Assembly (NCBI GenBank): GCA_022562855.1
Contig: JADFON010000076.1
Location: 1-7,621 of the forward strand
Direction: 5' to 3'
Source: Candidatus Zhuqueibacterota bacterium
Lineage (GTDB): Bacteria > SM23-31
Length of the DNA stretch: 7,621 nt
Shown here piece by piece: positions 3,331 to 7,621 of this stretch. Position 1 is the stretch's first letter; every line of letters starts with the position of its first letter. The translations under genes and the position numbers were made by a program. The notes beneath the pieces were generated by a model. The model was not told where the DNA came from. It saw nothing but the letters and a program-made list of their open reading frames with translations, and searched no databases.

Positions 3331-3528
3331 TCATGCATATACTTCTTTTTCATTACACTTACATACTTTTTCTATGGTTTTACTGAATTTCCATGCATTG
3401 CTATCCGATTTCTTTTCCGAATTAATCACCATCACCGGCTCAAATGACTGCCCGCATTTTGGACAGATCGGAACTCCACTCTTTCCGCCAAGCGCTTTTT
3501 CCGCAAACGTTTTCTGTTTCTTTGCCAC
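3331..3528 (-). CDS. Small four-cysteine (zinc-ribbon-like) protein of unknown function
   Basis: This is a 65-residue protein. After a basic, helical N-terminus (MAKKQKTFAEKALGGKSG) it has CPKCG (C22-x2-C25), then a central part containing VINSEKK and NAWKFSK, and finally CKCNEKEVY (C56-x-C58). The two cysteine pairs about 30 residues apart look like a zinc ribbon, the second with unusual C-x-C spacing. I do not recognise a named family with certainty. Reality of the gene is supported by an excellent AAGGAGA ribosome binding site upstream of the GTG start at 3528. It lies 74 bases after the M99 peptidase gene and 193 bases before pilT on the same strand. There is no signal peptide, so it is probably cytoplasmic. 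Nucleic acid or protein binding is a guess from the fold type only. Confidence 0.72.
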   Translation of the reverse strand: MAKKQKTFAEKALGGKSGVPICPKCGQSFEPVMVINSEKKSDSNAWKFSKTIEKVCKCNEKEVYA

Positions 3529-3602: not shown

Positions 3603-5471
3603 CTAAGGATTGCGTCTTGCTGAAATACTATTTAATTGTATGAATGACCGCCCGATTAGAATGTCACGATATTTTACATCGATAGCATACACTTTACCCC
3701 TTGTATCGATAGAATATTCGGGCAATAATTCTGAAGATACATATACAGGAAAATTTATATCGTTATCCTCGGATCCTCCTACAAACCCGCGGATATTCAC
3801 CGTAATTTCTGTGTTATTCGGAATATTCGTTACAATATCGGAAATTTCGAATGACCGTTCACTCGTGAACGAATAGGTTTTTCCATTCTCCAAAAACCCC
3901 TTGTTACCATTATCAAATGTAAGAACCAAATGGATCAATTCAGGATCGATAAGGCGGACCCTCATTGTTGCAAGCGTTTTTTCCTGGTTCTCTAAACGTA
4001 CTTCGTATTCTTTACCCTTCTGCCAGGATGAAAAAGACGCGTCGAGGTCTTTTGAGGTGTTAATATCGATACTTTGGTCGTCACCGGAATTGTCTTTCAT
4101 GTTTTTTTGCCAAAATCCTATAAAATTGATTTTTGCACCGGAAAAAACATCTACGGATGGGCTGGTACCGACAAGTCGAATAACATCTCCTTTCATTACA
4201 GACAGAATTCCGTTCGTTTTTACACTTTGCAGGAAGCCGTTCACAGATACAGTAAATCCCTCAACCTGCGGGCTGAGCCGGTAAACATTTTTTTCTTCAG
4301 CTGCAACGAATGCATTTTCCGAGACCTCTATGTTTACTATACCACACGGGAAACTGTCTTTCCCGATGATAATCGAAGTGTTTTTATAAATCGTTATATC
4401 AGATTCAAAGTCATTCAGACCTCCATGGTCGATTACATCGGCATACAAACCCCTTTCGGTATTTGCTTCTATATGCGTTATCCTGATTATGTCGGAAGGA
4501 CGCAGCGTTATCGTGGAACCATCGTGATAAACCCTGGGCGTATTATTATTTATCGACACCGTGAGAAAATTAAACTCCGGATCGAGAACCGGGTTAAAAA
4601 CTTCTTCACGTACGATACCAAATTCTTCCATAAAGGCATTTACTATAATCGTCTGGTAACGCACATTCAAAGAAAGGTCTGTTATATTTTTGGAAGTCTC
4701 AATTCCAAATGCAGGGATATTGTATTTTTTCAGGGCATAATATGTTGCCGACTTTTGCTGCTCAAAGTGTTTTGAGATTTCAGAAAAAGTATCATGGTTG
4801 TTAAATCTGAACAGGTACTCTTCATTCGAAATTTCCATGTTGACTACTGTGCAGATTCTTTTAGCAATTTTCTGAAGCGGTATGGTCTTATCGGATCCGG
4901 GGACGTAATATACGTCGGTATCGGCTATAATTGACTGGCCAAGCCGGTCTGGGTTGTGCATATCGTCAATATACTCTTCCCGGAAAAATCCCCAACCGTC
5001 ATGCAGATTCAGCATTACATCACTTTCTCCGATCAGGTCTTTGAGTATTTTGACTATCTCCATCGAATGGTCGTTCTCAAAGCGCGGTTCTTCGAGATCA
5101 AATAACCTGTTCATATCTCCGAGAATTCCTCTCTCATTTTCAATAATCGTTTGAAAATTCGCCCGGGGAACAACGATAAGCCTCCCTTTTTTAAGAGAGA
5201 TATCAACAAATTGGTCTGCTGTCAGATAACCGCCGGGTTCATTATGGATACCGCTGATTATTAAGAGGGTCGGACCCGGTTCTCTTCCTTCTATCCGGTA
5301 AATATTCAATTCATGCGATGTATCTTTGAAGTATATTTCATGACCGTTGTCTCCAGGGGCAAGACCGGTTATCACAAAATTAACCGCAAACAATACACTT
5401 AATGGGAAAAGAAGAGTATAGATGAACCGCTTTTTCGAAAATAGCATGCGCTTTACAATAATTTGGTTCAT
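3603..5471 (-). CDS. Membrane-anchored M14/M99-type zinc carboxypeptidase, Csd4/Pgp1-like
   Basis: This is a predicted periplasmic metallocarboxypeptidase. Relatives Csd4 (Helicobacter) and Pgp1 (Campylobacter) remove the terminal meso-DAP from peptidoglycan tripeptides and control cell shape. From the ATG at 5471 it has 622 residues; AAGGA six bases upstream supports this start over a GTG at 5558 in the same frame. A hydrophobic segment (about 16-36) forms a signal peptide or anchor. The catalytic domain (about 45-285) shows GIHNEPGGY (74-82; ligands H76 and E78), VVPRANF (100-106), DMNR (119-122, likely carboxylate binding), LNLHDGWGF (154-162; third ligand H157) and FGIETS (255-260; probable catalytic E258). 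The zinc motif is H-x-E rather than the usual H-x-x-E or Q-x-x-E. From about 295 on the protein is beta-rich, with two similar modules (302-331 and 406-434) and a further 180 residues, much longer than Csd4 (about 440). Substrate is inferred, not shown. Confidence 0.83.
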   Translation of the reverse strand: MNQIIVKRMLFSKKRFIYTLLFPLSVLFAVNFVITGLAPGDNGHEIYFKDTSHELNIYRIEGREPGPTLLIISGIHNEPGGYLTADQFVDISLKKGRLIVVPRANFQTIIENERGILGDMNRLFDLEEPRFENDHSMEIVKILKDLIGESDVMLNLHDGWGFFREEYIDDMHNPDRLGQSIIADTDVYYVPGSDKTIPLQKIAKRICTVVNMEISNEEYLFRFNNHDTFSEISKHFEQQKSATYYALKKYNIPAFGIETSKNITDLSLNVRYQTIIVNAFMEEFGIVREEVFNPVLDPEFNFLTVSINNNTPRVYHDGSTITLRPSDIIRITHIEANTERGLYADVIDHGGLNDFESDITIYKNTSIIIGKDSFPCGIVNIEVSENAFVAAEEKNVYRLSPQVEGFTVSVNGFLQSVKTNGILSVMKGDVIRLVGTSPSVDVFSGAKINFIGFWQKNMKDNSGDDQSIDINTSKDLDASFSSWQKGKEYEVRLENQEKTLATMRVRLIDPELIHLVLTFDNGNKGFLENGKTYSFTSERSFEISDIVTNIPNNTEITVNIRGFVGGSEDNDINFPVYVSSELLPEYSIDTRGKVYAIDVKYRDILIGRSFIQLNSISARRNP

Positions 5472-5477
5472 AATATG

Positions 5478-5482
5478 TCCTT
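5478..5482 (-). promoter_or_regulatory. Ribosome binding site that decides the start of the M99 peptidase gene
   Basis: The - strand reads AAGGA, six bases (CATATT), then ATG at 5471. Translation from here places the hydrophobic anchor near the N-terminus, as expected of an exported protein. The longer reading from 5558 would run through the terminator hairpin. Confidence 0.7.
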
Positions 5483-5516
5483 GAAATCTGTTATTTCTAA
5501 ACAAAGTGAATTTGAT

Positions 5517-5540
5517 AAAAAATGCCTGATATCGCAGGCA
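5517..5540 (-). terminator. Rho-independent terminator-like hairpin between the anchored protein and the M99 peptidase
   Basis: On the - strand TGCCTG (5540-5535) pairs perfectly with CAGGCA (5528-5523) around the six-base loop CGATAT, followed at once by TTTTTT (5522-5517). It lies 47 bases after the stop of the membrane protein gene and ends 45 bases before the M99 start. The 6-bp stem is short, so termination may be partial, which would lower but not abolish expression of the downstream peptidase. Confidence 0.72.
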
Positions 5541-5545
5541 AATTG

Positions 5546-5563
5546 ACGTAGTCATCACTACGT
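5546..5563 (-). other. Second hairpin directly upstream of the terminator
   Basis: ACGTAG (5546-5551) and CTACGT (5558-5563) form a perfect 6-bp inverted repeat around a six-base spacer, five bases before the terminator stem on the - strand. It could be an operator, part of the terminator structure, or a processing or stability hairpin at the 3' end of the upstream transcript. The two stems do not share sequence, so they are not an obvious anti-terminator pair. Confidence 0.5.
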
Positions 5564-5587
5564 AACAAGAAAACGCTTATTTCATTA

Positions 5588-6355
5588 TTAGAAACTGTTT
5601 CTAAGTGAGCGGGTCTGCTGAAGTAGTATTTCACCGCTGCTGGAAAAAACAAGAATACGGTAATATTCAAACGAAGCGCTATCGTCAGTCAAAACTAATC
5701 TTCCGGTTTTTTCGGGTGTCCGGATCGACATAGAAAAATACTCCCCCCGAAAATAATTGGGAATTTTTCCGTCGGTGGAGACTCTTACATCCGGATCGCT
5801 TATGTAAGGATTATTCTTGTCATTAGTTTTCGCTAAAATTATTATTGTACCGGATACGGTATTACTCGAATTGTCCTTCTTGTATATCTCGAACGATATT
5901 TCCAGTTCTCTTGCGTCTGCGGAAAGGCTGTGAATCCAATTATCAAAACCTATCATCTTGGAATCAATGTCTCCGGAGAATATATCCCCTTTTTCCTCAA
6001 CAGCCTCTGTATCATTCTCGATTTGACTGTTTTCTCCATTGGACCGGCTGGTCGATTCATCCAAAGAAGCGAAATTATCATTCGAGAAATCCTGATTGCC
6101 CGAAGTAATCTGCGGCGAAGAAAAATTACGAGTATCAACCGTTTCCTGGTTGGCTTCAGGTATGATCCCGGTCAAATTTCCAGGAAAACCGGGATTCGTA
6201 AACTGATAAATATTGAGACCGATAGAAAATACCAGCGTTATCGAAAAAACAGAGACCGCATAAATTGCCAGCCGGATTCTCCTGCGGTTGATCTTTATAC
6301 TTCTTACCCGTTTTACACCCTTTAAAATTAAAATGGTGGTGTTTTCGTCCGCCAT
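5588..6355 (-). CDS. Single-pass membrane protein of unknown function between the Csd6-like and Csd4-like genes
   Basis: This 255-residue protein has a short basic cytoplasmic N-terminus (1-27; KGVKRVRSIKINRRRIR), one membrane helix (about 29-51), then a polar Ser/Asn/Glu-rich linker (about 55-120) that looks disordered. A compact C-terminal domain follows (about 130-255) with alternating beta-like segments: ARELEISFEIYKKD, SGTIIILAKT, a proline- and glycine-containing middle with YFRGEYFSMSIR, and FEYYRILVFSSSGEILLQQ. The positive-inside rule places this domain in the periplasm. I do not recognise a named family. The layout (cytoplasmic tail, helix, linker, small beta domain) recalls Csd5, the membrane organiser of the Helicobacter shape complex, but no sequence relation is claimed. 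The ATG at 6355 is preceded by AGGG at suitable distance. It lies 66 bases after the Csd6-like gene and is followed by a terminator-like hairpin. A role as an anchor or partner of the flanking enzymes is inference. Confidence 0.85.
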   Translation of the reverse strand: MADENTTILILKGVKRVRSIKINRRRIRLAIYAVSVFSITLVFSIGLNIYQFTNPGFPGNLTGIIPEANQETVDTRNFSSPQITSGNQDFSNDNFASLDESTSRSNGENSQIENDTEAVEEKGDIFSGDIDSKMIGFDNWIHSLSADARELEISFEIYKKDNSSNTVSGTIIILAKTNDKNNPYISDPDVRVSTDGKIPNYFRGEYFSMSIRTPEKTGRLVLTDDSASFEYYRILVFSSSGEILLQQTRSLRNSF

Positions 6356-6421
6356 GAATATAGCCCTGTAATATTTAACTTACATAATGTGCAGTCAAAA
6401 ACAAAATTATTGTGTAATAAA

Positions 6422-7441
6422 TTAATTTGCGTCTGTCCACGATTCTGAAATAATTAGTAACCGTCCTTCGTTTTCAACAATGTAAAGTCGTTTTGTACCT
6501 TCGTCCCGGTAAATTCCGCTGCGAAATGACTGGTGATATTCGACAACAATATATTCATCCGATTGGTATATCCTCATGTTCGAAATATCGACATCAATCC
6601 ATTTATATTGGTTTAGTACCTGTTTCTTATAGTCTATCCACAAATGTAAATTTTTATCGTCACTCATAAAATTTGGCGAGTACGACGACTCATATTCTTC
6701 AAAGTTTCTTTGCTCCCAGCTTATTTTCCAGTTTTCAATAAAATTCAAAATTCTTTTTGAATAGCTTTCCAATTGATTTGCGGTAACATATTCGATTTCT
6801 TTGCTGATAATTATCGGGGTCTTGTTGAGAGAAATCAGGGAGGTAATCTCCTCCATATCCCGGTTATTAATTGCTACACACCCTTTGGTATCGTAAGGCT
6901 GCCCTATCCGTTCCGGACGGTCGGTAGCATGAAGCCAGATATCATAACCCTTCTTTTTATAGATACGGTCAATGCCGTTCGGATAGTCCATGTCGAATGC
7001 CCTTATTCCGAACTGCAGAGCTTCCCCTTTTCCGTAGAGCCTGACGAGTTGTTCGCTGTCCAGAACCTGTGTAAAAAAGTAAACACCTTCGGGTGTTTTC
7101 AGGTCGCCGTTTTTTTGCTTATTTCCCGGTATGGATCCTGTAGTACATTCATAGGTTTTTATTTTATGATAATTTCCATCGAATTTGTACACATATAATT
7201 CTTGCTTTTCTTTGTCGACAATTAGTACATATGGATTGTCGTTTGTGTCCATTTTAACAAGCGAAGACGGAATCATCCTAACATTGTATTCTTCATACGG
7301 AGAAAGATCGACAAGTTCATCCTTAATGTCGGTATTATGTCTGCCATCTTGTGCCAGCACGGGTGAGGACAAAATGGGAACTATCAGAAATGCTGTAAAA
7401 ACAATAACTCCGACATTTATCGGGATTTCTGCAAATTTCAT
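6422..7441 (-). CDS. Secreted YkuD-fold L,D-carboxypeptidase/transpeptidase, Csd6/Pgp2-like
   Basis: This is a periplasmic peptidoglycan enzyme of 339 residues. It has a clear signal peptide (hydrophobic 9-28, SSPVLA ending at 30, cleavage before QDG). The YkuD domain (about 68-215) opens with YVLIVDKEKQELYVYKFDG (71-89) and KTPEGVYFF (115-123). Its active site is IWLHATDRPERIG (168-180, H171) plus TKGCVAINNRD (185-195, nucleophile C188). The TKGC(I/V)AI form, lacking the Arg of standard L,D-transpeptidases (S-x-GC-x-R), is that of Csd6, Pgp2 and YafK-type enzymes, several of which are hydrolases. The C-terminal part (about 225-337; FIENWKISWEQRNFEEYESS, YHQSFRS, KRLYIVENEGRLLIISESW) is an NTF2-like domain, also present in Csd6. 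By family it would trim tetrapeptides to tripeptides, making the substrate of a Csd4-type enzyme; L,D-transpeptidation remains possible. It starts 30 bases after the GGDEF gene stop, with GAGA-type SD spacing, so it is probably cotranscribed. Confidence 0.88.
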   Translation of the reverse strand: MKFAEIPINVGVIVFTAFLIVPILSSPVLAQDGRHNTDIKDELVDLSPYEEYNVRMIPSSLVKMDTNDNPYVLIVDKEKQELYVYKFDGNYHKIKTYECTTGSIPGNKQKNGDLKTPEGVYFFTQVLDSEQLVRLYGKGEALQFGIRAFDMDYPNGIDRIYKKKGYDIWLHATDRPERIGQPYDTKGCVAINNRDMEEITSLISLNKTPIIISKEIEYVTANQLESYSKRILNFIENWKISWEQRNFEEYESSYSPNFMSDDKNLHLWIDYKKQVLNQYKWIDVDISNMRIYQSDEYIVVEYHQSFRSGIYRDEGTKRLYIVENEGRLLIISESWTDAN

Positions 7442-7471: not shown

Positions 7472-7621
7472 CTACAAAACGGATTCGGTTTCTTCCGAAT
7501 ACGCCACTACACAGTCTCTTCCTTTTGCTTTTGCCCGGTAAAGGGCGGTATCTGCTTCACTGATAAGTTTTTCATAATCTTTTGAAGAATTTGGAAATTT
7601 AACCGCACCGATACTTATCGT
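7472..7621 (-). CDS. GGDEF domain diguanylate cyclase, C-terminal end (5' part outside window)
   Basis: The last 49 residues are visible: TISIGAVKFP, then SSKDYEKLISEADTALYRAK, then AKGRDCVVAYSEETESVL and a TAG stop at 7474-7472. The TISIG strand, the (E)ADxALYxAKxxGR(D/N) helix and the following short strand are the invariant end of GGDEF domains, which make cyclic di-GMP from two GTP. The GGDEF active-site loop and any sensor domains lie beyond the right edge, so activity cannot be judged. The gene ends 30 bases before the Csd6-like gene on the same strand with no hairpin between, which suggests one transcript. Confidence 0.93.
   Translation of the reverse strand, partial: TISIGAVKFPNSSKDYEKLISEADTALYRAKAKGRDCVVAYSEETESVL

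Follow-up and report, generated by a model that had tools for sequence, protein, structure and literature searches.

A conserved cassette of two predicted peptidoglycan-trimming enzymes and a membrane protein that may tether them to bactofilin

Organization of the locus

The window analysed here, a stretch of 7,621 bases, represents the entire contig C82 of a 2.5 Mb genome that is 80% complete. The span from 7441 to 3603 on the minus strand is filled by three same-strand open reading frames (ORFs) in the order LDT, MID and M99. These coordinates agree with the first-pass annotation, which had described three consecutive genes on one strand in this order. The following features were assigned:

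6422 to 7441, minus strand: LDT, predicted secreted L,D-carboxypeptidase-type protein of 339 aa with signal peptide, YkuD and NTF2 domains (Pfam; similarity to 7o21)
6806 to 7234, minus strand: YkuD catalytic domain of LDT (Pfam); H171, G187 and C188 invariant among 24 cassette homologues
6443 to 6751, minus strand: NTF2-like (Cds6_C) domain of LDT (Pfam), shortly followed by a Trp equivalent to W303 of Bd1075
5588 to 6355, minus strand: MID, putative bitopic adaptor of 255 aa with no Pfam or NCBIfam entry
6290 to 6340, minus strand: predicted cytoplasmic beta-hairpin of MID, aa 6-22 (AlphaFold2 model; HMM likeness to the region by which LmdC-type M23 peptidases bind bactofilin)
6197 to 6286, minus strand: helix of MID including the transmembrane segment, aa 24-53 (AlphaFold2 model and sequence)
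5591 to 5968, minus strand: predicted periplasmic beta-sandwich of MID, aa 130-255 (AlphaFold2 model, pLDDT ~97)
5523 to 5540, minus strand: terminator-like hairpin and T run in the gap between MID and M99 (pattern match only)
3603 to 5471, minus strand: M99, predicted metallo-carboxypeptidase of the Csd4/Pgp1 family, with a probable ATG start at 5471 and a frame open to 5558
5238 to 5246, minus strand: zinc motif H-N-E (HxE) of M99 (homologue alignment)

The open frame of M99 extends from a GTG at 5558 to 3603 (651 aa). Probably, translation starts at the ATG at 5471 rather than at this GTG, since the relatives begin there and the terminator-like hairpin (5540-5523) precedes that ATG. The hairpin could decouple M99 from LDT and MID, in a window where eight such pattern matches were found compared with 4.7 in shuffled sequences.

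On the 3′ side, the cassette is followed by genes for a PilT-family ATPase, a HAM1-type pyrophosphatase and a DUF6901 protein (Pfam/NCBIfam). These were dropped as parts of the cassette; HAM1 and pilT are kept only in the two nearest relatives, with altered spacing. A small ORF with a zinc-ribbon-like CPKCG motif (3331-3528, minus strand) is located in the interval between M99 and pilT. Immediately 5′ of the cassette, positions 7492-7621 (minus strand) encode the apparent C-terminal end of a GGDEF (diguanylate cyclase) domain, which is truncated by the end of the contig.

Relatives of the cassette were collected by scanning 84,980 species genomes, which yielded 504 M99 relatives. The best 80 of these were fetched; addition of the window and another five loci brought the total to 86 distinct loci, mostly from Desulfobacterota. 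The nearest relatives belong to one small class, the closest being the metagenome-assembled genome bacterium SM23_31 with an M99 that is ~60% identical. Judged by genome names among the best 80 of 504, the remaining relatives are mostly Desulfobacterota, with some KSB1, Latescibacterota, Nitrospirae, Glassbacteria and Cloacimonadota.

LDT, a predicted L,D-carboxypeptidase related to Bd1075

Both domains of LDT were detected above the Pfam cut-offs (YkuD, 2.5e-17; Cds6_C NTF2, 1.8e-18), and the protein carries the motif TKGCVAI. In sequence comparisons with solved structures, Bd1075 (7o21) gave an E-value of 3.3e-44, followed by Csd6 (1.9e-21) and Pgp2 (3.2e-18). The protein had initially been called Csd6-like; the YkuD/NTF2 family and the TKGCVAI active site were borne out by Pfam and the structure matches, whereas the nearest relative turned out to be Bd1075 and not Csd6. 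An arginine two residues after the catalytic cysteine is a feature of most L,D-transpeptidases (PMC8938487). The corresponding position 190 of LDT, two residues after Cys188, is occupied by Ala, and by Val, Ala or Ile among the 24 aligned homologues. By its domains and active site, LDT thus belongs with the L,D-carboxypeptidases of the Csd6/Pgp2/Bd1075 type, and an activity of this kind is predicted. An alternative assignment as DpaA/LdtF (NCBIfam) was rejected: the score of 27.4 bits is far below the cut-off of 365, and the NTF2 domain and the similarity to Bd1075 point to the Csd6 type.

Bdellovibrio cells are bent by the L,D-carboxypeptidase Bd1075, whose NTF2 domain retains the enzyme on the convex side (PMC8938487). 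Thus, a curvature-setting relative of LDT outside the Epsilonproteobacteria is already known. Like LDT, Bd1075 of Bdellovibrio bacteriovorus combines YkuD and NTF2 domains over the matched 290 aa, has a short N-terminal segment and contains a C-terminal Trp in the NTF2 pocket. This residue, W303, was reported as specific for Bdellovibrio (PMC8938487); an equivalent Trp is present in LDT of the window and in 16 of the 24 aligned cassette homologues. The two proteins differ in the residue two positions past the catalytic Cys (Val in Bd1075, Ala in LDT) and in their genetic context, as bd1075 is monocistronic while the LDT gene sits in a cluster with MID and M99, often joined by bactofilin. Csd6 of Helicobacter pylori and Pgp2 of Campylobacter jejuni share the YkuD and Cds6_C NTF2 domains and an Ala at the second position past the catalytic Cys, but are more distant from LDT than Bd1075, and many cassette homologues add a second NTF2 domain or the MID sandwich. 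Tandem NTF2-like domains were seen in many cassette LDTs (L031, L040, L041, L050, L056, L060, L073, L105).

No YkuD protein other than LDT was found in the 80% complete genome of the window, and LDT could therefore serve general roles. This would fit a function of both enzymes in general peptidoglycan maintenance or in muropeptide recycling (tetra- to tri- to dipeptide), with MID merely as an inner-membrane anchor. However, the characterized relatives Csd4, Csd6, Pgp1, Pgp2 and Bd1075 are determinants of cell shape, and the cassette is linked to bactofilin (see below), so that we regard such a housekeeping role as quite improbable and favour a role in shaping the cell wall.

M99 and its shortened zinc motif

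M99 matched Peptidase_M99 (PF17033) with an E-value of 8.6e-31 and 107.8 bits compared with a cut-off of 27. Its AlphaFold2 model (mean pLDDT 90.9) aligned to the Csd4 structures with Z-scores of 31-32 over ~370 residues, while the next fold, succinylglutamate desuccinylase, reached a Z-score of 21. Foldseek gave a similar picture, with 1.4e-27 for Csd4 versus 1.2e-9 for the next fold. The rmsd to Csd4 of ~11 Å probably reflects differently placed domains in the model. Csd4 is therefore by a wide margin the top structural match, which supports the previous designation of M99 as a Csd4-like enzyme. Like Csd4 of H. pylori and Pgp1 of C. jejuni, M99 consists of a catalytic domain followed by beta domains and keeps most of the substrate residues; its C-terminal beta region is longer than that of Csd4. 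With roles taken from the Csd4 literature (PMC4220969), the equivalents of Arg86, Asn93 and Arg94 (substrate), His128 and the catalytic Glu222 are invariant in 73 M99 homologues. The position of Csd4 His126 is occupied by Asn in M99.

The metal site shows a further difference. Other M14 enzymes bind zinc by the motif HxxE. In the window, the metal motif of M99 reads H-N-E...H and is one residue shorter than the QxxE of Csd4 or HxxE. Among Csd4 homologues, QxxE...H has been described as strictly conserved (PMC4220969). Q occupies the first position in 67 of the 73 M99 homologues, and QxxE is found in Csd4 and most cassette members, whereas HNEP/HxE occurs in all five members of the class of the window (the window, L029, L030, L033 and L038) and in none of the 68 other aligned homologues. 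As it is common to five separate assemblies, an assembly error was ruled out. The first annotation as an M14/M99 zinc peptidase was thus right for the family, but the zinc motif to be expected from it is replaced by H-N-E, on which it had not remarked.

The shortened motif could signal an inactive M99 in this clade. M99 of this class might then be a dead or altered enzyme, its zinc triad broken by a one-residue deletion, that serves as a scaffold with a beta-domain tail; the restriction of HNEP to all five class members is in line with this. Yet the catalytic Glu is retained in the HxE-bearing proteins, as are the second zinc His and the residues equivalent to Arg86, Asn93 and Arg94, at an identity of 39-59% within the class, which indicates that selection on the site continues. 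We consider loss of catalysis unlikely; it touches only one part of the cassette and is compatible with a role of MID as adaptor. By profile and predicted fold, M99 is a member of the M99 family, but we refrain from calling it an orthologue of Csd4 with proven equivalent catalysis.

MID, a single-pass protein with an LmdC-like N-terminus

MID had been noted as a single-pass anchored protein in the middle of the cassette, and one transmembrane helix was indeed found in its 255 aa. The AlphaFold2 model consists of two strands forming a hairpin (6-12 and 16-22), a helix (24-53), a disordered linker and the sandwich (130-255). No family was found for MID in Pfam, NCBIfam or PDB sequences; scattered database matches among its members resemble transmembrane or coiled-coil matches and were dismissed. 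A scan of the genome contigs with the single MID sequence gave no match, because MID proteins diverge too rapidly to share short exact peptides. Fold searches with the sandwich returned generic Ig-like/GH2 sandwiches (best Z-score 9.9), from which no function was deduced.

A profile built from the whole protein (53 homologues aligned) was compared with about 2,000 ORFs (1,906). Beyond MID proteins and LDT fusions it matched nine proteins, all nine of which are LmdC-type M23 peptidases encoded next to bactofilin. The matching region runs from the hairpin through the transmembrane helix into the beginning of the linker. When the profile was restricted to the 25 residues preceding the transmembrane segment, the M23 peptidases scored above 247 other ORFs with an N-terminal transmembrane segment (p 3e-5, which overstates independence as the sampled genomes are related), with low single scores for most of them. 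Therefore, the likeness does not come from the transmembrane helix alone. We regard it as a short resemblance and do not claim homology as proven.

LmdC is an M23 endopeptidase whose cytoplasmic region binds bactofilin and requires a conserved beta-hairpin to do so; this binding modulates curvature in Rhodospirillum (PMC10945521). LmdC-type peptidases share with MID the layout of cytoplasmic beta-hairpin, transmembrane helix, linker and periplasmic domain (PMC10945521), and their genes adjoin bactofilin, as MID cassettes often do. In MID, however, a beta-sandwich replaces the M23 peptidase domain, so that MID would act by bringing in other enzymes and not as an enzyme itself. On the basis of sequence and model, MID may act like a bactofilin client without being an LmdC. 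A comparable layout has been described for Csd5 of H. pylori, a single-pass protein with a periplasmic beta domain, a peptidoglycan-binding SH3 domain and a cytoplasmic N-terminus that binds the bactofilin CcmA; MurF is a further partner (PMC9507126). The folds listed for the MID sandwich were generic Ig-like/GH2 ones (Z-scores of at most 9.9). Unlike Csd5, MID travels with the trimming enzymes.

Conservation of the cassette and fusion of LDT to MID

The LDT gene lies upstream of M99 on the same strand in 70 of the 86 loci, and a separate MID gene adjoins M99 in at least 67 of 86, often overlapping or only a few bases away. Several loci that seemed to be devoid of MID turned out to encode a divergent copy or one in a different frame; some contain LDT and M99 without MID (L025, L028). 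The synteny check proposed at the outset therefore came out in favour of a conserved three-gene order. At five loci (L035, L036, L039, L044, L046), LDT itself carries the MID sandwich as its C-terminal part (i-E 1e-30 to 1e-34), and two of them (L036, L046) have no separate MID. Such fusions point to a joint action of the sandwich and LDT.

Linkage to bactofilin

A bactofilin gene is located beside the cassette in 38 of the 86 loci. In 28 of 86 it directly follows M99, with a spacing that ranges from a 154-base overlap to a 130-base gap; in L031 and L032, an M23 gene lies between M99 and the bactofilin gene 3′ of it. In the five fusion loci, bactofilin lies upstream of LDT; in L074 and L100 it lies upstream of MID, again together with an M23 peptidase, and in L105 it is ~4 kb from the cassette. 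In the class of the window, none of the five cassette-bearing genomes has bactofilin beside the cassette; all six genomes of the class contain it elsewhere.

Co-occurrence was followed in 118 related genomes of one phylum (that of G028), for which p-values are only a guide. MID including its C-terminal domain, as read from match ranges, was present in 23 genomes, M99 in 22 and Cds6_C in 29, and 21 of the 22 M99-bearing genomes also had Cds6_C. Bactofilin was present in all 23 genomes with MID compared with 60 of 95 without. In four genomes of one family, MID is paired with bactofilin and neither M99 nor Cds6_C was detected; the pair was read directly in G166, G142 and G112 and by position in G075.

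The fusion of the sandwich to LDT at five loci would also be expected if MID regulated the assembly or activity of LDT only, for instance as a co-factor holding the NTF2 domain. Adjacency to bactofilin would then represent clustering in morphogenesis operons with no contact, as might be suggested by the many cassettes, including those of the window's clade, that have no adjoining bactofilin. On the other hand, three to four genomes in which neither LDT nor M99 was matched have MID paired with bactofilin, and MID carries an LmdC-like cytoplasmic hairpin. We therefore find a function confined to LDT doubtful, and prefer MID as a connection between the enzymes and bactofilin.

A model for localized trimming of the cell wall

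We are moderately confident that the locus is a module for shaping the cell wall in which MID tethers trimming enzymes to bactofilin. The direct results behind this reading are the protein families, the conservation of active sites, the fold, the synteny, the fusion and the linkage to bactofilin. As to the activities, we infer that LDT would cut tetrapeptide stems to tripeptides (L,D-carboxypeptidase) and that M99 would cut these to dipeptides (D,L-carboxypeptidase). Gene linkage and the hairpin suggest that the cytoplasmic hairpin of MID docks onto the bactofilin filament, while its periplasmic sandwich might hold or position LDT, and perhaps M99. Trimming would thereby be confined to the wall beside the filament. 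Such local trimming could alter growth or stiffness of the wall on one side, resulting in curvature or another non-rod shape.

The initial idea that a membrane component could recruit the enzymes gains support from the adjacency to bactofilin, the LmdC-like N-terminus, the LDT fusion and the MID-bactofilin pairs. Taken as a whole, the first-pass reading held for enzyme assignments, synteny and recruitment but not for Csd6 as the nearest relative of LDT; it had mentioned neither the bactofilin link nor the unusual zinc motif.

LDT and M99 are each a fresh member of a known family, and the new part is the MID family with its link to bactofilin. In the literature, with most subscription journals outside the coverage, we found neither an adaptor family of the MID type tied to bactofilin nor a report that connects carboxypeptidases of the L,D- or D,L-type with bactofilin. 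Recruitment by bactofilin has been described for M23 endopeptidases (PMC10945521). For Bd1075, the authors stated that no mechanism is known by which a protein could be directed to just one of the lateral side-walls (PMC8938487), and the one-sided placement of trimming enzymes of the Bd1075/Csd6 type is the question on which the MID cassette may bear. We are evenly divided on the wider proposal that MID represents an unnamed family of bactofilin adaptors linking the cytoplasmic skeleton to periplasmic trimming enzymes, with one-sided carboxypeptidase action and curvature in Desulfobacterota and several candidate phyla. If true, MID adaptors would provide a general mechanism for both. A conserved cassette with an adaptor and an LDT fusion renders such a connection between bactofilin and carboxypeptidases directly testable, and it offers a marker by which genomes of uncultured bacteria can be screened for possible shape control.

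Further bactofilin-associated genes

The genome of the window contains bactofilins on contigs C27 and C102, one of them adjoining an LmdC-type M23 gene. Two more M23 peptidases with an LmdC-like N-terminus (L112, L114) were not found beside bactofilin. Several clients may share one bactofilin skeleton in this genome. At L074 (4295-8689) and L100 (4432-8710), both bactofilin-client systems occur together in the order M23 peptidase, two bactofilins, MID and M99. Two-gene MID-bactofilin pairs are located at L165 (3419-4519), L166 (1745-2812) and L162 (1135-2195), in genomes with no detected LDT-NTF2 or M99.
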